Below, one piece after another: positions 1 through 18,934 of a stretch of 63,072 bases of DNA. The translations under genes were made by a program, and so were the position numbers. Within the stretch, counting starts at the first letter, position 1; the number at the start of each line of letters is the position of its first letter. Under the pieces are notes generated by a model that worked only from the letters and a program-made list of their open reading frames with translations, was not told the origin of the DNA and did no database searches. The stretch comes from a virus. The stretch covers positions 1-63,072 of the IMG/VR virus record IMGVR_UViG_3300025660_000448; one strand, written 5' to 3'.

Positions 1-978
1 TTATAACTTTTTAGCCATCACTTGTAATGCTTTACCAATAGCCTTTCCCATTAAAACTGGCACTGCATTTCCAAGTTGACGATATTTATCTCTAGTTTTT
101 CCTTCAATAATCCAATCATCAGGAAAACATTGTATACGTTTATACTCCTCTATACTCAGAGGTCTATTTTTTGATGGATGACAAAGTGTAGTTGCTCTTT
201 GCACTGGAGAAGTCAGCAATGTGGGGGACGGACGATTCCAACTAAGGCGTCGATAAAATGCTGTTAATCCACCGCTTTTAAGATTAGCATTACCCATTGC
301 TTTTTTATGGTCTTTTTTAGGTAAAGATTTCCAACATCCTCCTTCTGGTATTTTTGGCATAAACCTCCCTATCGAGTTGGGAAAATTTACCCATTCCCCT
401 TGGTCTTCAAGGTCAGCTATTGCATCTTCCAACGTTAGTAAACATGTATTTTTTATAGGAAATATCACATCACCATGTAAATTACCTATAAGCAAAAACC
501 GTTTTCTAGTCTGAGGCACACCATACTGTGAAGAATTGACTATTTCCCATTTACATTTATATCCGGCCTTCGTAAAACGACTAATCAACTCCCCTACTAT
601 CTTACTACTTCCATATGTAATTCCCGGTACGTTTTCCATGACGAAAAATGTAGGCTTTACATCTTCAACAATTTGTACAAAACCAAGCAATGCCGCTCCA
701 CGCTCATCATCTAAGAATTTCCTCTTCCCTATGGTACTAAATGACTGACAAGGAGGTCCGCCTACAATAACATTTACATGTTTTTCCCTTGCGAATTGCG
801 GCAAATTCTCTGAAAACACATTGTCAAAAATTATAGATTTTGGACGATTTGCCTGTATTGTTAGTTGGCATATTTTGTCTCGCTCCGCATATCCAACAAC
901 TTTAATTCCAGCCATCTCAAGTCCTAGGTCAAGCCCAAGACATCCAGAAAATAACGATAAAGCACGTAATTTAGGCAT
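1..978 (-). CDS. C5-cytosine DNA methyltransferase
   Basis: Transfers a methyl group from SAM to carbon 5 of cytosine in duplex DNA. The 325 residues show the family motifs in order: motif I near residues 7-20 (LSLFSGCLGLDLGLE), the catalytic PCQ loop in GGPPCQSFS near 75, ENVPGI near 116, QTRKRFLLIG near 156 and the C-terminal RQLGNAVPV. Length is typical of a complete Dcm-type enzyme, and both start and stop lie inside the window. It sits 57 bp downstream of a second methyltransferase and a probable restriction enzyme on the same strand, so it probably belongs to that modification system; a stand-alone anti-restriction role is also possible. The target site cannot be read from sequence. Confidence 0.93.
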   Translation of the reverse strand: MPKLRALSLFSGCLGLDLGLEMAGIKVVGYAERDKICQLTIQANRPKSIIFDNVFSENLPQFAREKHVNVIVGGPPCQSFSTIGKRKFLDDERGAALLGFVQIVEDVKPTFFVMENVPGITYGSSKIVGELISRFTKAGYKCKWEIVNSSQYGVPQTRKRFLLIGNLHGDVIFPIKNTCLLTLEDAIADLEDQGEWVNFPNSIGRFMPKIPEGGCWKSLPKKDHKKAMGNANLKSGGLTAFYRRLSWNRPSPTLLTSPVQRATTLCHPSKNRPLSIEEYKRIQCFPDDWIIEGKTRDKYRQLGNAVPVLMGKAIGKALQVMAKKL

Positions 979-1035
979 ATATGACCCTTTAAAGAACGAT
1001 TATCCAATTCAACGGGTCGTATATTACCAATTTTT

Positions 1036-1854
1036 TTACAACTGTTCAAGGTGTTTTTTAATTCTTTCTTGTGCTATCGCAGAATATTTTTCATCTAAAT
1101 CTATGCCAATATAATTCCTGCCAAGTTCTACCGCAGCAATCCCGGTCGTTCCGCCACCCTCAAATGGGTCAAGAACCAAGTCATCTTTGTCGGTGAATAA
1201 TTTAATAAAAAAAACTGGTAGGGATTTAGGGAACGCTGCTGGATGTTTTTTGTTTCCACATTCAGTAGCAAAATGCAACACATTAGTTGGATAAACTAGT
1301 TTCTTACCGACCCAATTTGACACATTTTTGCCAAACGAGCTACCAGATTTAGAATTATCTCTTTGTTTATCAGTCTTGCTTAAGTTTTTTAGACGACCTT
1401 CAGCCCAATCTCCAATTGGAACTCGCACGCTGTCTTGATTCATTTTGAATTTCTTTTGCAAATTAAACTGCAAACATCGTTCCCAAGAATCTCTAAAACG
1501 ATTAGGCCACTTTCCGGGGAAACAATTCTTCTTGTGCCACATCCATTCCTCCGTCCATAACCACTGTTTTTTTCGCATAGCTTGTATTAATTCTAAAACA
1601 TAAGTATGCCTTTCTCCAGAAACAACTTTTTCTTTGATGTTTATTATAAATGTGCCAGTAGGTTTTAAGACTCTTTTAATTTCTTCTGCTATAGGCAAAA
1701 ACCATTCTACATATTTATCAGCACATGGTCCAGAATATTGCTTTTTTCTTGCATCAGCGTATGGCGGAGATGTAATTACTAAATCTATAGTTTCTGAATC
1801 AACTCCTTTTAAAATTTGTAAGCAATCTCCAACATAATTTTCAATTTTATTCAT
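1036..1854 (-). CDS. Beta-class N4-cytosine/N6-adenine DNA methyltransferase
   Basis: SAM-dependent amino-methyltransferase of 272 residues. The catalytic motif IV comes first (TSPPYADARKK near residue 29) and the SAM-binding motif last (DPFEGGGTTGIAAVELGR near 234), the order of the beta class. TSPPY is commonest in N4-cytosine enzymes, but DPPY/SPPY enzymes of the same class make N6-adenine, so the product is left open. Its start overlaps the stop of the upstream nuclease-like gene by 4 bp (ATGA), which implies translational coupling, as expected for a restriction-modification pair. Confidence 0.9.
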   Translation of the reverse strand: MNKIENYVGDCLQILKGVDSETIDLVITSPPYADARKKQYSGPCADKYVEWFLPIAEEIKRVLKPTGTFIINIKEKVVSGERHTYVLELIQAMRKKQWLWTEEWMWHKKNCFPGKWPNRFRDSWERCLQFNLQKKFKMNQDSVRVPIGDWAEGRLKNLSKTDKQRDNSKSGSSFGKNVSNWVGKKLVYPTNVLHFATECGNKKHPAAFPKSLPVFFIKLFTDKDDLVLDPFEGGGTTGIAAVELGRNYIGIDLDEKYSAIAQERIKKHLEQL

Positions 1855-2624
1855 TTTATATCCATTATTTTTTTCATCCAGTTATCATTATCTTTTTTAT
1901 TTCCACAACTATTTTTTGCTATAGATTTCCATGCATCAATTGTTGATATAAAGATGTCACCACCATATACTTGCTCATATTCTTTCAATAATCTAACACA
2001 AGATAATTCAATCTCATTATTGAATATCTGTTCAAATTCTGTAGCTCCTACGGATGTTACATCTAAAATTTCTTGATAAAAATTCTCTTCACCATCAGTA
2101 ATAAGACACCAAAAATTCTGGCCACTAATTTGCACATCAGCATATTGAAGGTCTTTAGTTGGCGAATTACCACAACAAATACCCATAACTGATATTAAGT
2201 CATGGTTTGTGTCATTTTGATTTATAGTCTTTTTGGCCTTCTTAAATTGGTCTCCTTGCTTTGCTATACTTTGACTATTCCCCCATTTATCACTGCTTTT
2301 TATCGAAATTAGTAAACGACGTTTCCCTTTAAGTAAATCTAAATCAATGCCACTCATTCCTGTTTTTACATTTTCTCCATACGCCAAACTACAAACCTTA
2401 ATACTAATATCTTCAAAAAGCGAACCAAACTTAGTTTGGTTTGATTTTCCCATGAACCCATTAAGTGAATATTTTATTGCTTCTTTTGGACTACCACATA
2501 CAACAGAAGGAAGATATGGGTTTATCGTTAAATTTTTTATTCTTACCTCTTCTAATCGTTGCAATACTGATTTTCTAAATTTACATACTGCTACTCCGAT
2601 AAATTGTTTTATTTCGTTTTTCAT
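1851..2624 (-). CDS. Probable type II restriction endonuclease (PD-(D/E)XK, PmeII-like)
   Basis: A 257-residue protein whose middle carries a plausible PD-(D/E)XK core: an acidic strand in SGIDLDLLKG near residue 91 followed by LLISIKSSDKWGNSQ near 103, giving the D...(x)xK spacing of type II endonucleases. The IKS..WGNSxxIAK..xxFKKAKK stretch resembles the PmeII-like restriction enzyme family as I remember it; this is a recollection, not a search. A restriction role is supported by the 4-bp overlap with the methyltransferase immediately downstream. It could instead be a non-restriction nuclease. A sigma70-like promoter sits just upstream of its start. Confidence 0.55.
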   Translation of the reverse strand: MKNEIKQFIGVAVCKFRKSVLQRLEEVRIKNLTINPYLPSVVCGSPKEAIKYSLNGFMGKSNQTKFGSLFEDISIKVCSLAYGENVKTGMSGIDLDLLKGKRRLLISIKSSDKWGNSQSIAKQGDQFKKAKKTINQNDTNHDLISVMGICCGNSPTKDLQYADVQISGQNFWCLITDGEENFYQEILDVTSVGATEFEQIFNNEIELSCVRLLKEYEQVYGGDIFISTIDAWKSIAKNSCGNKKDNDNWMKKIMDIK

Positions 2625-2647
2625 ATAAAGTATTTTACTAAAAAAAC

Positions 2648-2676
2648 ATAATAAAGTCGAGAACTTAATTTTTCAA
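2648..2676 (-). promoter_or_regulatory. Sigma70-like promoter for the restriction-modification operon
   Basis: Read on the - strand: TTGAAA, a 17-nt spacer, then TATTAT, ending 24 bp before the ATG at 2624. The spacing is exactly optimal and the site points into the nuclease-methyltransferase operon. Confidence 0.5.
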
Positions 2677-2817
2677 TCATTAATTTTTATTTTTTTCTTT
2701 GGGACAAAATTAGAATAATCATTGTTTGGAAAATTTACAAAACAATTTTCAATACCAAATAAATTAATAGCATGATAATCATAATTCATAGCAGCAATGC
2801 TTTGTTATACATTTTTG

Positions 2818-3807
2818 TCAATTAGACTCAGTTTGTATCCTCTTATTTCTTATAAGTATTCTAAAATATGGGCACTTTCCATTGATCGACAAGTCCTTTT
2901 CATCATCCCCTTTTCTGAATTTAATTATTTCAAATTGATCGGGGTTAAATTTATGTAGGAATGTTATTGGTACCCCCATAGCTCCCTTGTAGTCTAATGG
3001 TATGTCTTTTGTCTTATTAACATTAATCCCATCATAATTATCATATTTCGGGTATTCAGTTTCGTTTCCAAAGTATTCCCTTGTAAGAACAATATCTTCG
3101 TGTCGTTTGTAAGTGTCTAAATTGGTTAGCCATAAGCAGTTATTAGGAGAAACTATTCTGTTTCCTAGACCATCAATCCGAGCCTCTGTTCCATAGAGTT
3201 CATAATGCTTAGGAACGATGAAACCAGAGACACCTCTACCAAGATTTATGCCCAACCACGCCTTATTTTCCTTGATTAGCTTGAAAATGTCTTTATAAGT
3301 TATCGCATTTACATTTCCAATTATTAAAAACTTTTTATCGTGTTTAACAAGTTGTTCAACATATTTCCTGAATAATGAAAACGGTGGATTAGTAACAACA
3401 ATATCTGACTTCTTCAGCAAATCAATGCTCTCCGAACTACGGAAATCCCCGTCTCCTTTAAAGTGCAAAATTTCAGGCACGCTTAGTTTATTTTTTTCAT
3501 CAGCTGTATTTCTATATTCAAAGAAAAAACCAGTTTCTTCACTCTCTTCACTAAATAAATCTCCCGATTGCTCTTTGTAGCAAGATGTTAATATCTTCTT
3601 GATTCCTAGATCTTCAAAGTTATCAGTAAAATATTTAAAGAAATTGCTTATTCTAGGGTCGTCACAATTGCAAAAAACAACTTTGTCTTTAAAGTGTGTT
3701 TTATAATGCTTCAATTCACTTTCAATATCGCAAAGCTGGGTGTAAAACTCATCACTTTTTGACTTCTTTGCTTTTTGCAATAATTGGTTTGTTGCGTTTC
3801 TTGCCAT
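2818..3807 (-). CDS. ecoRIM: Adenine-specific DNA methyltransferase, M.EcoRI family
   Basis: This 329-residue protein closely resembles M.EcoRI (326 residues), which methylates the second adenine of GAATTC. Recognisable stretches are the N-terminus MARNATNQLLQKAKKSKSDE, CNCDDPRISNFFKYF near 47, the catalytic VVTNPPFSLFRKYV near 136, IGNVNAITYKDIFKLI near 160 and the C-terminal KGDDEKDLSINGKCPYFRIL. It looks intact and full length. It lies 39 bp downstream of the remnant of an EcoRI-type endonuclease on the same strand, the same R-then-M order as in the EcoRI system. With the nuclease destroyed it would act as an orphan that protects phage DNA: GAATTC sites remain, for example at 9771, 10068, 28919, 31025 and 58965. 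Confidence 0.93.
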   Translation of the reverse strand: MARNATNQLLQKAKKSKSDEFYTQLCDIESELKHYKTHFKDKVVFCNCDDPRISNFFKYFTDNFEDLGIKKILTSCYKEQSGDLFSEESEETGFFFEYRNTADEKNKLSVPEILHFKGDGDFRSSESIDLLKKSDIVVTNPPFSLFRKYVEQLVKHDKKFLIIGNVNAITYKDIFKLIKENKAWLGINLGRGVSGFIVPKHYELYGTEARIDGLGNRIVSPNNCLWLTNLDTYKRHEDIVLTREYFGNETEYPKYDNYDGINVNKTKDIPLDYKGAMGVPITFLHKFNPDQFEIIKFRKGDDEKDLSINGKCPYFRILIRNKRIQTESN

Positions 3808-3846
3808 TGATAACCTACCTCTATTTATGTCTTCGCTAACATTCGG

Positions 3847-4119
3847 TCACTTATTAGTTGTAATCTGGGTAAATAAATCACTTCCCAATGCTTTAAGGGA
3901 AGATATGGAAACCTCAATCATAATTTTAAACATTTCTTTGACATTCCACTTTTCTCCACACCCTTGAGAGTATATTGATGCCGCCTGAAGCATAATTGCT
4001 TTATCTTTATACTTGACGACTTTATTTACACATAAATTTTTATTTATTGGCATTCCATAATTTGCAGATGTCAATCTATCTAATCTGTTTAACATTCCTG
4101 AATTGTATTCAAGATTTAC
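3847..4119 (-). pseudogene. C-terminal remnant of an EcoRI-type restriction endonuclease
   Basis: An open 82-codon stretch beginning at 4095 reads like the last third of R.EcoRI: LNRLDRLTSANYGMPIN, then KDKAIMLQAASIYSQG and SLKALGSDLF, each nearly matching my memory of the R.EcoRI C-terminus. The same frame continues past that ATG to 4119 with VNLEYNSG, also R.EcoRI-like, and then meets two stop codons where the GIY-YIG gene ends. The catalytic part of R.EcoRI (Asp91, Glu111, Lys113, and the Glu144/Arg145 recognition arm) lies upstream of this fragment in the family and is absent here. The piece is therefore nuclease-dead; whether the 82-residue peptide is made is unknown. Confidence 0.85.
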
Positions 4120-4886
4120 ACTTCTACTTCATCATGAAACGAGCCTAAATTTATATCTTTATGATTAAAATTAATTCTAGATTGCCATGTTTTGCCTTTT
4201 CTTTTTTTAACTCCTTTATATTTATTTTTAGGAGGTTTTAATCTTATTGCTTTGTTTTTTTTACAAATAGATTCTTGAGATTGTTTTCGTCCCATTTGAC
4301 TACGAGATATTTTTCTTTTTGTTTCTTCAGTATGTTTTCTTTTACCACCACTCTTTTTGCCCAAATTTCCTTCCGATATTTTTCTTTTTGTTTCTTCAGT
4401 ATGTTTTCTTCCCAATTGAGCTTTTCTTCTAGCTTCTCTTACACTATTGGGTGTTCCAAATTTTAAATATCTTTCTTTTTGAGATTTGCTTAATTTTAAT
4501 TTAGATTCATATGTCCAAACTCTAATTCTATTTGCGTTTCCTATTTTGAGTTTTGCTTCTTCAGTATGCTTTCTTCCTCTTGGACTTCCGCCCGCTGTTG
4601 GTTGTATATTATACTGATGTCCCCATACTTGGTCTATCCAAAACTGCTCTCTTTCATCTAATTTATTTTCATCTAAAACTTCTTCTAATAAATAAAACAA
4701 AAAATTAATTTTCTCATATTTATTCCACGCTGCTTGCAAATGTTTATTATAATGTTTATTGTTTACAAGAAGTGATTTATGTTCCATAAACCTTTGGTTC
4801 ATTCCTTTATTTTTACAAACTTGTCCAACATATATCTTTCCATTAATCTTATTTTTAATCGCATATATTCCTTGAATTTTTTCCAT
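4116..4886 (-). CDS. GIY-YIG homing endonuclease with NUMOD3 repeats and truncated AP2-like tail
   Basis: From ATG 4886 (MEKIQGIYAIKNK) the protein opens with a GIY-YIG nuclease domain: GIYAIKNKINGKIYVGQVCK, a downstream MEHKS.L helix and the catalytic-type Glu region EREQFWID. Several NUMOD3 DNA-binding repeats follow (HTEEAKLKIG, HTEETKRKISEGNLGKK, HTEETKRKISRSQMGRK), then YKGVKKRKGKTWQSRINF, which starts an AP2-like domain. That domain stops short at GSFHDEVEV, exactly where EcoRI-endonuclease homology begins in another frame, so the C-terminus is probably clipped. An upstream ATG at 4931 is in frame but would overlap the HTH gene more. It is a selfish DNA-cutting gene, now fused against the restriction gene. 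Confidence 0.85.
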   Translation of the reverse strand: MEKIQGIYAIKNKINGKIYVGQVCKNKGMNQRFMEHKSLLVNNKHYNKHLQAAWNKYEKINFLFYLLEEVLDENKLDEREQFWIDQVWGHQYNIQPTAGGSPRGRKHTEEAKLKIGNANRIRVWTYESKLKLSKSQKERYLKFGTPNSVREARRKAQLGRKHTEETKRKISEGNLGKKSGGKRKHTEETKRKISRSQMGRKQSQESICKKNKAIRLKPPKNKYKGVKKRKGKTWQSRINFNHKDINLGSFHDEVEV

Positions 4887-5037
4887 ATAATATTTTTTCC
4901 AAATCAGAAACATTGTATCTTCGATGCCCACCTAATGTTCTAACAGGGCAGAATTTACCAGACTTATCCCAATTCCTAAGTGTTGTTGTTGTTACTCCTA
5001 ATAATTCAGAAGCAGCTTTAATAGTTATAAGTTGCAT
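4855..5037 (-). CDS. MerR/excisionase-type helix-turn-helix protein
   Basis: A 60-residue protein made almost only of a winged HTH: TIKAASELLGVTTTTLRNWD, then TLGGHRRYNVSDLEKIL. The GGHRRY wing is typical of the MerR-like domains at the N-terminus of IS607-family serine recombinases and of excisionases. No recombinase domain follows; instead the gene overlaps the start of the GIY-YIG gene. A similar HTH gene precedes another nuclease-like gene at 17649. It may help target or regulate the neighbouring endonuclease, which is inference. Confidence 0.75.
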   Translation of the reverse strand: MQLITIKAASELLGVTTTTLRNWDKSGKFCPVRTLGGHRRYNVSDLEKILYGKNSRNICD

Positions 5038-5057: not shown

Positions 5058-6452
5058 TTATAATTTTTTATAAGATTTTATAATTTTATCAATAATTTTT
5101 GTTGTAGAAATTCCGTCAACAAGAGGAGCAAAGCATAGCTCATTAACATTTTCAGGTTTTTCCATTTTGCCTTGCCAATCCATTCCTTTTACTAAAACAT
5201 CAGGTTGAATTATTTTAATTATGTCATTCGGAGTATCTTCATAAAATGGTATAACATAATCAACAACATCCAATGCAGCTATCATTTTTATTCTTTGTTC
5301 TAATGGAATAATAGGTCTGGTGTTTCCTTTTAATCTTTTTACGCTTTCATCGGAATTAACCAACACCACAAGTTTATCTCCTTTGGATTTAGCAAACTCA
5401 AAGGTAGATATATGAGCAAAATGACAAAAATCATACACTCCATTTGTCATAACCAATTTAAAAGCCCTATCTTTCAAATCATAAGGGGATACAAATTTAG
5501 CTTTTATTGGGTCATCAATAGCTAATAATTCATAAGGAAGAACAGGCTTATTGTGTTTTTTCTGAACATATATCGACCCAGCCTTCCAAGCTAACTCTAC
5601 TGATTTTACGATATCTATACAATGAGTTTGGGTCATTGCTAAAAATGCCGCAAAACAATCACCAGCACCTATGACCGATTCACAGGGTACATGAAAATCA
5701 GGTGTGTATTGGAAATGACCATTAAGTGTCTTTCCAACAACACCTTTTTTGCCCTGAGTAATTACTACTGCTGGACACCCTAAAACAAACATAAAATAAT
5801 CACACTGCTTTTTCCAATCTTTCAATCCGCTAAGTTCATAGGCTTCTTTCTCATTTGGTTTGAATATGGAACATCCTTTCCACTTTTCTATCGGACCATT
5901 TTTAGGGTCTACAATAGTTAATAAATCTTCATTACACATCCAATTTAAATCACTATTAAACAATCCCTTTCCATAATCAGAAAAAATTACTACTCCAGAT
6001 GCCTCTTTACAGAATTTTTCATGCAACTCCCTTTGAAAATTTGTCAATGATTCATTCGATAGACCAAAATTATTAGATTCTATATCCCATCTACAAAGAG
6101 GGAAATTATCTTGATAAATTCTTTTTTTTACAGGATTTTTACCTTCCATTAAAATGCATGATTTAGAACTAATAGAAGATGAATTTAAAACGTCAAAACC
6201 ATGTGTGTCAATTAATGAATAGAACTCCACATCTACATTAAACTGTTCCATTTGACGACATACATTTCCTGCACCACCCGGAACTGCTATGTTTGGTGCA
6301 TTATTAGAAGATAGCATGACAGGTATAGGAAATTCAGGAGAAACCCTATCTGCCAGTACGTGAAAGTATTCATCTAATAAGTAATCTCCTACAACGGTTA
6401 TTTTAGACCTTGTAGAATCATTCATTTCCAAAAAGGTTTCTATATCTGTCAT
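5058..6452 (-). CDS. hldE: HldE-like bifunctional sugar kinase / nucleotidyltransferase
   Basis: Two fused domains, as in HldE, which makes ADP-heptose for lipopolysaccharide. Residues about 1-310 are a PfkB/ribokinase-type kinase: TVVGDYLLDEYF near 19, FSDYGKG near 152, and the phosphate-transfer signature VIGAGDCFAAFLA near 261. Residues about 330-464 are a cytidylyltransferase-type domain: MTNGVYDFCHFAHIS (the TNG.FD..H.GH motif), VLVNSDESVKRLKG and DVLVKGMDW. Length (464) fits a complete HldE. In this phage it may supply activated heptose, or a related sugar, to the GT9-like transferase at 53864 for glycosylating virion or host surface; that link is inference. It diverges from the tail-fibre operon at 6492. 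Confidence 0.8.
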   Translation of the reverse strand: MTDIETFLEMNDSTRSKITVVGDYLLDEYFHVLADRVSPEFPIPVMLSSNNAPNIAVPGGAGNVCRQMEQFNVDVEFYSLIDTHGFDVLNSSSISSKSCILMEGKNPVKKRIYQDNFPLCRWDIESNNFGLSNESLTNFQRELHEKFCKEASGVVIFSDYGKGLFNSDLNWMCNEDLLTIVDPKNGPIEKWKGCSIFKPNEKEAYELSGLKDWKKQCDYFMFVLGCPAVVITQGKKGVVGKTLNGHFQYTPDFHVPCESVIGAGDCFAAFLAMTQTHCIDIVKSVELAWKAGSIYVQKKHNKPVLPYELLAIDDPIKAKFVSPYDLKDRAFKLVMTNGVYDFCHFAHISTFEFAKSKGDKLVVLVNSDESVKRLKGNTRPIIPLEQRIKMIAALDVVDYVIPFYEDTPNDIIKIIQPDVLVKGMDWQGKMEKPENVNELCFAPLVDGISTTKIIDKIIKSYKKL

Positions 6453-12855: not shown

Positions 12856-13431
12856 CTAAACTATACAAATTATGGCATTATTCCTATACTCATCTAAAGT
12901 TTTTGCATTTAGATAACTCATACTACTTCGCAGTCCATTAATAAATCTTTGTATAACTGAATTTATAGATGGGCCTAAATCTACAAGATATTCCATACCT
13001 TCAACGTAAGTCGGTTTTTCTCCTTTATAATCCAACTGAGTAGAGTAAGAGGCCGCACCTCTAAACACTTTTTTAAGACGCCCATCTATTTTTACAACTC
13101 TTGCAGGACTTTGTGGACATTGAGCGAAGACGCCCCCTAGCATAGTTATATCAGACCACATAAGTGCTTTATTCATATCGGCAGGAGTTTTTATCCCTCC
13201 ATCAGATATCACAATAGCATCCCCAATTTTATTTTCATAAACCTCCATTAATGTACTTACCATTGGACGATAAATTCCCGTTTCAAATCTTGTCGTACAA
13301 GCAGAATTATGGACAACAATTTCATCTTCCACACAGAAAGAATGGTTGTTTTCTACTTCTAAATCATAAACGATTTCGCCTGTTGTGTTATATGAATCTA
13401 TTTTTTCTATTGGTATCAAGTCAAATTGCAT
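12856..13431 (-). CDS. guaB: Split-intein C-half fused to C-terminal part of IMP dehydrogenase/GMP reductase
   Basis: Residues 1-42 are an intein C-domain: IVYDLEVENNHSFCVEDEIVVHN with the terminal His-Asn needed for cleavage, followed by Ser as the +1 residue. The host extein then continues SACTTRFETGIYRP, the IMPDH/GMPR active-site loop with its catalytic Cys, and on through DGGIKTPADMNKAL and FRGAASYSTQ, both family motifs. Trans-splicing with the N-half encoded at 14403-15221 would restore a whole enzyme. The arrangement matches the fractured IMPDH genes with IMPDH-1-type split inteins described from ocean metagenomes. The start overlaps the homing-nuclease stop by 11 bp. Confidence 0.9.
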   Translation of the reverse strand: MQFDLIPIEKIDSYNTTGEIVYDLEVENNHSFCVEDEIVVHNSACTTRFETGIYRPMVSTLMEVYENKIGDAIVISDGGIKTPADMNKALMWSDITMLGGVFAQCPQSPARVVKIDGRLKKVFRGAASYSTQLDYKGEKPTYVEGMEYLVDLGPSINSVIQRFINGLRSSMSYLNAKTLDEYRNNAIICIV

Positions 13432-14353
13432 TGTAATATTCCTGTAAACTATCTAAAACTCGTAAGTTTCCTTCTTTGACATCTTTTTCCCATATATGAA
13501 ACAATTTAAAATTATGTTTTTCTGCAAATTCAATCTTAGTCTTATCTTTATTTTTGTTTTTCATTTGCATGTCATTAAATTCTTTATATATCTTCGGATT
13601 ACCATGCCAATAATCACCTTGAACTTCCAATAAGATTCTTTTAGATTTACACCCGAAATCATATTGTTTATAATCTAATATAACAGAATATTCAAAATCA
13701 TTCAAGCCTCTTTTGATTAATTCATCTTTTACAATTTTTTCTAATTTGTTAATTTTATATTTCTCATGTTTAGTAGCTGCAACCTTTCCTGCTTTAGACC
13801 TTAATGCCTTATATTTTTCCGGGTCTTTTCTAAACAGTTTTTTTTGACTATTAGAAAATAATTTAGAACGAACGACCTTTTCTTCTTTAGTTAAAGACGC
13901 CTGATATACTCTATTTTTTTCTGCTATTCTATCTAAAATACATTGAGGATGCTTTTTGCCATAAAAAGGATTTTTTTCACCTTTAAATTTCCCCTTTAAA
14001 CTTTCAGATAGCTTTCTCAAAGATTCCTTCGTATGTTTTTTACCATAAAAAGGGCTTATGTTACCTTTATTTTTACTTCCTATTTTATCTTTTGTTTCTT
14101 GTGTATGTTTTTTACCATAAAAAGGGTTTCTGTTACCTAAGCTATTGCAATGGCAACATCTAGGAATTTTATTTATTAAATACCAACTAAGAGTTTTTAC
14201 AAAACGAAGCTTTTTACAATCTGGACATTCTGCCTCTATTTTTTTTATATCTTTAAATGTTATTTCAACACCATTTTCTAACAAATAAACATTTTCCCTT
14301 TTTCTAGAATTTTTACTTACAACTCTTGAACCGTTTAAAAATATATGATGCAT
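13421..14353 (-). CDS. VSR-like (EDxHD-type) homing endonuclease between split-intein halves
   Basis: 310 residues. The N-terminus carries a CPDC/CCHC zinc-binding pair (ECPDCKKL, RCCHCNS), then three NUMOD3 DNA-binding repeats (NPFYGKKHTQETKDKIG, SPFYGKKHTKESLRKLS, NPFYGKKHPQCILDRI). The C-terminal ~100 residues resemble the very-short-patch-repair fold: FEYSVILDYKQYDFGCKSKRI, LLEVQGDYWHGNPK, and HNFKLFHIWEKDV. This domain order and position between split-intein halves are those of the nuclease family described with fractured phage genes (Dassa et al. 2009). A ribosome-binding site AGGAGA precedes ATG 14353. It presumably drives spread of the split-intein allele. Confidence 0.85.
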   Translation of the reverse strand: MHHIFLNGSRVVSKNSRKRENVYLLENGVEITFKDIKKIEAECPDCKKLRFVKTLSWYLINKIPRCCHCNSLGNRNPFYGKKHTQETKDKIGSKNKGNISPFYGKKHTKESLRKLSESLKGKFKGEKNPFYGKKHPQCILDRIAEKNRVYQASLTKEEKVVRSKLFSNSQKKLFRKDPEKYKALRSKAGKVAATKHEKYKINKLEKIVKDELIKRGLNDFEYSVILDYKQYDFGCKSKRILLEVQGDYWHGNPKIYKEFNDMQMKNKNKDKTKIEFAEKHNFKLFHIWEKDVKEGNLRVLDSLQEYYNAI

Positions 14354-17648: not shown

Positions 17649-17831
17649 ATGATAAAAATAAAATGTGAAAAATACTATACTCCACAAGAAGTAGCTGAAA
17701 AATTTAACGTGAGCACAAATACCGTTGCTAGGTGGAGAAAAAATGGAAAATTATCTGCCCATAACATTAGCGAAAGAAAATTTATGTATTCTGAAACAAG
17801 TATAGAAAAATTCATCACGGGGAACAAATGA
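17649..17831 (+). CDS. Excisionase/MerR-type helix-turn-helix protein
   Basis: Sixty residues, essentially one winged HTH: YTPQEVAEKFNVSTNTVARW followed by RKNGKLSAHNISERKFMYSE. It overlaps the next gene by 4 bp (ATGA) and lies on the + strand amid - strand genes, so the two form an inserted unit. Compare the HTH gene at 4855, also coupled to a nuclease. Repeated GATAA words upstream (17609-17645) may hold its promoter or an operator. Confidence 0.7.
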   Translation: MIKIKCEKYYTPQEVAEKFNVSTNTVARWRKNGKLSAHNISERKFMYSETSIEKFITGNK

Positions 17832-18934
17832 TAATAAATGGAAAAGAATACTTAAAACCTAAAGAAGAGCACCGTCTGACAAAAAGCAGTATAAACAAAA
17901 GAATCCTATCTAAAAATATACAACTAATAGGCAGCTTCAAAGGGGTCCATACAACATCTACATTCAAATGTTTAGTTTGCGGACATACAAGAAATATGGC
18001 AACAGTAAATGTTTTATATGAAAATTACAAATGCAAACAATGCAAACTAAACAAAGAAAAAGAAAATGTTAATAATAAACTTATGTCCAAGTCATTTAAA
18101 TTAACAGAAACATTTAAAGGAAACACAAAAAAACAAAATATAACATGTATGAAATGTAATTATATATTTCATGTAGCTCCAAGGAGAATTTTAGAAAGCG
18201 ACAGAAAATGTCCTAAATGCTCTACAAGGGCTGCTAGAACTCAAAAACGATTTGAAAATAAAATAAAAAAATTAAAAATAATAATGCTGTCTGCTTATAA
18301 AAATGGAAAAACTAAAGTAAAAATAAAATGCACAAAATGTAACACAATATCACAACCTACCCCAACTAACCTATTAAGACCGGGAGCCGGTTGTCGCCAT
18401 TGCTCGATAATTATACCATTAAATATTGCTAAAAAAAGATTATCGAAAAAGAAAATAGACATTCTCCAATATATTAGCTTCTCTGAAAAAGCTCTGTTGC
18501 GATGTGAGAAATGTCAATATATTTGGAAAGCGTCCCCAGACCAAATCTTTCATACCTCTGGATGCCCTGTGTGTAACGCTAGAAAAAACGAGAAATTGAC
18601 ACTTAAATACCTAAAAGAAATGTTAAAAAATATTACTATTGAATATCAATATAGCGTAAAATATGATATTAAAAAAAGATTTATTATAGATTATGCTTTT
18701 AAAACAAAAAATAAACAATATTACGTAGAATACAATGGGGTACAACACTATAAACCAGTTAAATTTTTTGGTGGCGAAAAAAGATTTAAAAAACAAAAAT
18801 CAAGAGATGAAAATCTTATGAAATATTGTATAAATAATAATATAATATTGATAGAAATAGATGGAAGAAAATATACAGATGATAAAATTAAGACTTACTT
18901 AAAAAATAAACTTTCTTCCTATAATTTAATCTAA
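17828..18934 (+). CDS. Zinc-ribbon PD-(D/E)XK-like mobile endonuclease
   Basis: 368 Lys-rich residues. Four or five CxxC zinc-ribbon units come first (FKCLVCGHTRN, YKCKQCKLN, ITCMKCNYIFH, RKCPKCSTR, IKCTKCNTISQ, LRCEKCQYIW, CPVCNARKN). The C-terminal ~100 residues look like a restriction-like nuclease core: FIIDYAFKTKNKQYYVEYNG (D...ExN), VQHYKPVKFFGG, and IILIEIDGRKY. That architecture occurs in free-standing homing-type nucleases. Its orientation against neighbours and its HTH partner suggest a mobile insertion. Very AT-rich codon use. Confidence 0.65.
   Translation: MIINGKEYLKPKEEHRLTKSSINKRILSKNIQLIGSFKGVHTTSTFKCLVCGHTRNMATVNVLYENYKCKQCKLNKEKENVNNKLMSKSFKLTETFKGNTKKQNITCMKCNYIFHVAPRRILESDRKCPKCSTRAARTQKRFENKIKKLKIIMLSAYKNGKTKVKIKCTKCNTISQPTPTNLLRPGAGCRHCSIIIPLNIAKKRLSKKKIDILQYISFSEKALLRCEKCQYIWKASPDQIFHTSGCPVCNARKNEKLTLKYLKEMLKNITIEYQYSVKYDIKKRFIIDYAFKTKNKQYYVEYNGVQHYKPVKFFGGEKRFKKQKSRDENLMKYCINNNIILIEIDGRKYTDDKIKTYLKNKLSSYNLI

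Follow-up and report, generated by a model that had tools for sequence, protein, structure and literature searches.

How did a phage come to carry an M.EcoRI-type methyltransferase gene behind the 3' third of an EcoRI-type endonuclease gene, which itself starts exactly where a GIY-YIG homing endonuclease gene ends? This question is raised by a locus in a single IMG/VR virus record, IMGVR_UViG_3300025660_000448, the 63,072 nt of which are referred to here as the window. We propose that a fragment consisting of the tail of the nuclease gene (R) and the methyltransferase gene (M) was, most probably, inserted by illegitimate recombination into the homing gene of a T4-like phage, giving rise to an orphan methyltransferase.

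Organization of the locus

The T4-like replication genes of the window encode a UvsX-like recombinase, a DnaB-like helicase, a phage single-strand binding protein, a DNA helicase and a DNA polymerase. The features of the locus are listed in Table 1. All genes from the helix-turn-helix (HTH) gene through the C5 methyltransferase gene share one direction, and the HTH gene (4855-5037) shares 32 bp with the beginning of the GIY-YIG gene. The layout of these two genes at 4116-5037 recurs at 17649-18934 (+ strand), where a small HTH gene overlaps the beginning of an endonuclease gene of homing type (HNH family). An IMP dehydrogenase/GMP reductase-like gene (12856-14353, - strand) is apparently split by an intein with NUMOD3/homing-endonuclease features.

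Table 1. Features in and around the proposed insertion.
Feature	Position	Strand	Remarks
HldE-like gene	5058-6452	-	
MerR/excisionase-type HTH gene, 60 aa	4855-5037	-	PF00376, E 1e-13; phrog_66 (excisionase and transcriptional regulator), E 1.5e-9
GIY-YIG homing endonuclease gene, 5' part (GIY-YIG, three NUMOD3, first AP2 part)	4116-4886	-	ATG 4886, TAA 4116-4118
AP2 5' (beta-sheet) part, ending ...LGSFHDEVE	4122-4235 (start approximate)	-	AP2 N-half profile, E 6e-10
Proposed inserted piece, 1326 bp: R.EcoRI 3' third, M.EcoRI and 22 bp	2796-4121	-	AP2 halves on both sides
R.EcoRI-type endonuclease gene, 3' end	3847-4119	-	residues ~189-277; startless, catalytic part missing
M.EcoRI-type adenine methyltransferase, 329 aa	2818-3807	-	apparently intact; PF13651, E 8e-131
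AP2 3' (helix) part and natural GIY-YIG gene end, AAMNYDYHAINLFGIENCFVNFPNNDYSNFVPKKKIKIND, then stop	2676-2795	-	AP2 C-half profile
EcoO109I-family endonuclease	1851-2624	-	
N4/N6 methyltransferase	1036-1854	-	
C5 methyltransferase	1-978	-	

The R.EcoRI remnant

The - strand translation of 3847-4119, VNLEYNSGMLNRLDRLTSANYGMPIN...TQITTNK followed by a stop codon, comprises 90 residues with no internal stop. It had been predicted from the sequence to be EcoRI-endonuclease-like, and the alignments bear this out: it matches residues 189-276 of the 277-residue R.EcoRI chain 2oxv (E 3e-37) and positions 173-257 of the 257 in the Pfam profile PF02963 (EcoRI; E 4e-40). In an unfiltered six-frame search with a full-length R profile, the remnant covers 183 to 277 of 277, and no other piece of R turns up in the whole window. 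The active site of R.EcoRI lies upstream of the retained tail. Neither a functional R.EcoRI-type endonuclease, with a full PF02963 domain and its catalytic residues, nor a complete type II restriction-modification (R-M) system is encoded here, the R gene being without residues ~1-188 and without a start codon. The original prediction of a lost nuclease and a kept methyltransferase agrees with the presence of the R tail only beside an intact M.EcoRI homologue, and an intact R gene, as it suggested seeking, is carried by the phage contig L002 in an intact R-M pair.

The R tail shows 80% identity to the intact R of L002 and 69% identity to the E. coli plasmid copy, and at the DNA level similarity to the L002 contig is confined to 2816-4120, at 82% identity. 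The dN/dS of the tail against L002 is ~0.12, with no clear relative-rate excess. Being free of stops and having this low ratio, the remnant would be either young or still under constraint; it may be too young or too short for decay to be told.

The interrupted homing endonuclease gene

The GIY-YIG gene product matches PF01541 (E 4e-6, above its cut-off) and PF07460 (NUMOD3, E 2e-14) in Pfam and the homing endonuclease family phrog_314 (E 2e-27) in PHROG, and its end is AP2-like (phrog_99). By eye, the nuclease domain shows its GIY, YVG, R, E and N residues, so the GIY-YIG domain is present; the C-terminal DNA-binding part is not intact, the AP2 domain being cut by 1326 bp. The protein ends in ...NFNHKDINLGSFHDEVEV, with one extra codon past the split before the stop, and its RB16 homologue runs on as ...IHLGYFDDEVEAAKAYDAKAIEIGGQYARLNF. 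Directly past the M stop, the third frame of the - strand reads ...AAMNYDYHAINLFGIENCFVNFPNNDYSNFVPKKKIKIND up to a stop codon, and the RB16 segment FDDEVE-AAKAYD is matched in the window by FHDEVE on one side of the split and AAMNYD on the other.

Half-domain HMMs of AP2 were used to search for the two parts, the C-terminal one being built from six other phages. The window yields 2333 six-frame fragments, of which the C-half HMM matched one (2676-2804, E 2.7e-5; the next at 4.8), and the N-half HMM was significant in the window only within the GIY-YIG gene (E 6e-10). When joined, the halves match PF00847 over positions 2-53 of 54 with E 0.0012, at a score of 19.6 bits, below the Pfam gathering score of 33.3; neither half alone nor the control matches, and the search of the window itself with PF00847 gave no match because the AP2 domain is split. 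Joining the halves also improves the phrog_99 E-value from 8e-7 to 5e-10, and in tblastn the joined stretch matched phage homing endonucleases across the join, none of which was matched by the 5' half alone. The stop codon of the GIY-YIG gene, a TAA, is located at the same join as the R tail, as first noticed. The earlier view that the gene was truncated there holds in that it ends at the join; deletion did not shorten the AP2 domain, the rest of which is at 2676-2795.

Because the AP2 halves flank the R tail and M, we infer that the homing gene took up a 1326-bp piece and, as read from its two halves, is the host of the insertion and not the invader. The join has a 1-bp ambiguity (G); no target-site duplication and no terminal microhomology of more than 1 bp was found at the ends of the insert, and the predicted uninterrupted site is GATGAAGTAGAAGCTGCTATGAATTATGAT. 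No relative with an uninterrupted GIY-YIG gene came to light: searches with the GIY-YIG gene, the AP2 remainder and the gene next door (only 42% identity) gave no close relative of the region and no second contig across the join, and the near-identical contigs L136 and L137, found via UvsX, have no match to it.

The donor would have been a fragment of an EcoRI-type R-M locus extending from nuclease codon ~189 to 22 bp beyond the M stop. It is proposed to have entered the 3' end of the GIY-YIG/NUMOD3/AP2 gene by illegitimate rather than site-specific recombination, perhaps when DNA close to the homing gene suffered a double-strand break. Such genes are known to mark exchange boundaries between phages (PMC10448857). 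By this insertion the homing gene would have lost its last AP2 helix, and the phage would have gained an orphan M.EcoRI-type methyltransferase, most likely protective.

GATC avoidance as a relative clock

The whole contig contains 3 GATC sites against 201 expected; all of them (2884, 2937 and 3609) lie inside the M gene, and two are common to L002. Outside the insert (61.7 kb) there are none against ~197 expected, with none at 1-2795 and none against 6.7 expected at 1-2817; the probability that three randomly placed sites all fall in the insert is 9e-6. The confinement of GATC to the M gene points to a foreign and recent insert, and the two flanks, both being free of GATC, would share one GATC-avoiding phage history. 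Judged from these counts, the insertion is recent relative to the duration of GATC avoidance in the phage. CGCG is absent from the window (~30 expected), and the near-total avoidance of GATC and CGCG is probably a response to host restriction.

Two further observations concern site counts. L142, a contig of 10.5 kb that comes from another T4-like phage and bears an R tail, has no GATC against 34 expected. RGGNCCY, the EcoO109I site, occurs once in the window against 25 expected, and among 32 similar patterns none is more depleted once flanks are taken into account; the window encodes an EcoO109I-family endonuclease (1851-2624), whose gene overlaps the N4/N6 methyltransferase gene by 4 bp, with the C5 methyltransferase gene adjacent.

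Alternative origins of the junction

A single deletion that fused the GIY-YIG gene to the interior of a complete downstream R gene, an origin near to the illegitimate recombination of the original prediction, would explain by one event why both genes are truncated and end at one point, and phage contigs with intact R-M genes do exist; however, the second half of that AP2 domain, found beyond M, would not be expected from a simple deletion, and we regard this origin as unlikely. Insertion of the full R-M piece into AP2 and a later internal deletion that ran precisely back to the GIY-YIG side could also give the join, at the cost of two events. The original prediction also entertained an imperfect homing event, in which the GIY-YIG gene invaded R.EcoRI by homing, with later loss of the R 5' part. 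Although the homing gene does lie directly at the break in R, R 5' sequence is absent beyond it, where the HTH gene is separated from the next gene by 20 bp; the AP2 halves show the homing gene to be the interrupted one, and by its GATC sites the R/M side is the later arrival. This idea had to be given up as highly improbable.

That two genes stop at one join, with the contig end 4.1 kb away, might also reflect an assembly chimaera of the phage contig and another genome at ~4117. Yet both sides of the insert are GATC-free and carry AP2 halves, 1-4119 does not stand out from the contig in tetranucleotide usage or GC, and a long word common to both sources is not seen at the join, all of which make a chimaera very unlikely. 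The clean position between two codons and the length of 1326 bp, a multiple of three, would suit an intron-like or programmed element whose removal restores the homing endonuclease, but an Rfam search returned no intron family, and the insert starts in R.EcoRI coding sequence, ends 22 bp past M and has no end repeats; such an element is hardly credible. Insertion of an R-tail and M fragment into the homing gene is therefore the reading followed below.

The methyltransferase and its expression

The M.EcoRI homologue covers positions 2-344 of the 345 in PF13651 and contains the NPPF motif (VVTNPPFSLF), which together assign it to the M.EcoRI-type adenine methyltransferases. Comparison with L002 gives dN 0.089 and dS 0.95; as read from these rates, M is under purifying selection, the values mostly mirroring its history before capture. 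GAATTC occurs 19 times in the window against 28 expected, so its avoidance is not strong. The captured M would methylate GAATTC and shield the 19 sites of the phage, and the advantage of keeping it would be protection without the lethal nuclease.

The M gene may be expressed by read-through from the GIY-YIG gene, from a promoter within the R tail, or both. In the EcoRI system M promoters lie inside R, where strong reverse promoters repress them (PMC3874152), so by analogy the R tail of the captured piece could act as a promoter for M; read-through from the GIY-YIG gene, which points the same way, would serve equally well. A sigma-70 consensus scan of the region gave one weak site, below the shuffle mean, so the sequence itself lends a promoter in the tail no support; the same scan gave zero sites on the sense strand of the R gene in the E. 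coli plasmid copy and is thus not informative on this point. The R breakpoints at residues 84, 153 and 183 place no constraint on the promoter idea.

Other M.EcoRI and R.EcoRI loci

Most of 33 viral M.EcoRI loci, found by M, have no detectable R. Among the IMG/VR contigs in which R can be detected, the gene is complete or almost complete in L002, L003 and L004 (identical R-M), L011, L129, L130 and L132, and 5'-truncated in the window, in L007 (from residue 153) and in L008 (from residue 84). The L002 contig carries phage baseplate genes and the L007 contig T4-like head and tail genes; L008 is a 258-kb contig with a terminase-family match. The bacterial set consisted of the best 80 of 242 matches, 76 of which had enough upstream sequence; among these 76 loci one is 5'-truncated (L113), about 11 have frameshifts or stops, and the rest are full length. 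With small counts, chosen post hoc, and with L003 and L004 counted separately, Fisher tests of 5'-truncation gave p 0.004 for 3/10 IMG/VR loci against 1/76 of these best-matching bacterial loci, and p 0.03 for 2/9 against the same 1/76 when the window is left out. The truncated R of L036, a Helicobacter phage record, was excluded from the counts, its neighbour genes looking chromosomal.

These loci raise the tentative and rather doubtful possibility that phages repeatedly capture a 5'-truncated R together with M, because the 3' part of R carries the M promoter(s) and has shed both antisense control and toxicity, with homing-gene loci as landing sites and the window, L007 and L008 as three independent cases.

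In L129 (3436-5267) and L130 (790-2557) the R.EcoRI homologues are preceded by a DPPY-type methyltransferase, and M.EcoRI is absent nearby. The region 3' of M in L007 (~1975-2045) resembles an integron attC end (TAAC...GTCGTTAG); this candidate was rejected, its folding being no better than that of shuffles.

Comparison with known systems and significance

The locus shares with the EcoRI R-M system (PF02963, PF13651) the R-then-M order and orientation and a short gap between the genes (39 bp in the window, ~30 bp in the E. coli plasmid copy), but it lacks the first two-thirds of R, active site included, and is phage-borne, within a homing endonuclease gene. M.EcoRI-type methyltransferases are also annotated in other phages, for example the Mycobacterium phages Marchy, Hami1 and Norz and the Flavobacterium phage laban6-1; the R tail has no match in these four records, and their homologues therefore look like orphans, whereas the window retains the R tail and its insertion point is known. 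The homing gene has the same domain order as the phage GIY-YIG/NUMOD3/AP2 homing endonucleases (phrog_314, phrog_99; e.g. Xanthomonas phage MK21), with the nuclease motif present, but its AP2 domain is cut and the remainder lies 1.3 kb downstream. As at the exchange boundaries described previously (PMC10448857), foreign DNA is found at a homing gene; in the window it lies inside the homing gene itself.

Phage orphan methyltransferases are already known and are common, and what is new is a split-gene, datable example. The route by which a phage obtains the protective half of an R-M system without the lethal half is usually invisible; here the end points of the donor, the landing gene and a relative clock, GATC avoidance, can all be read from one sequence. 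This opens two questions, namely whether R tails are kept as promoters of M and whether homing-gene loci are favoured sites for anti-restriction genes.
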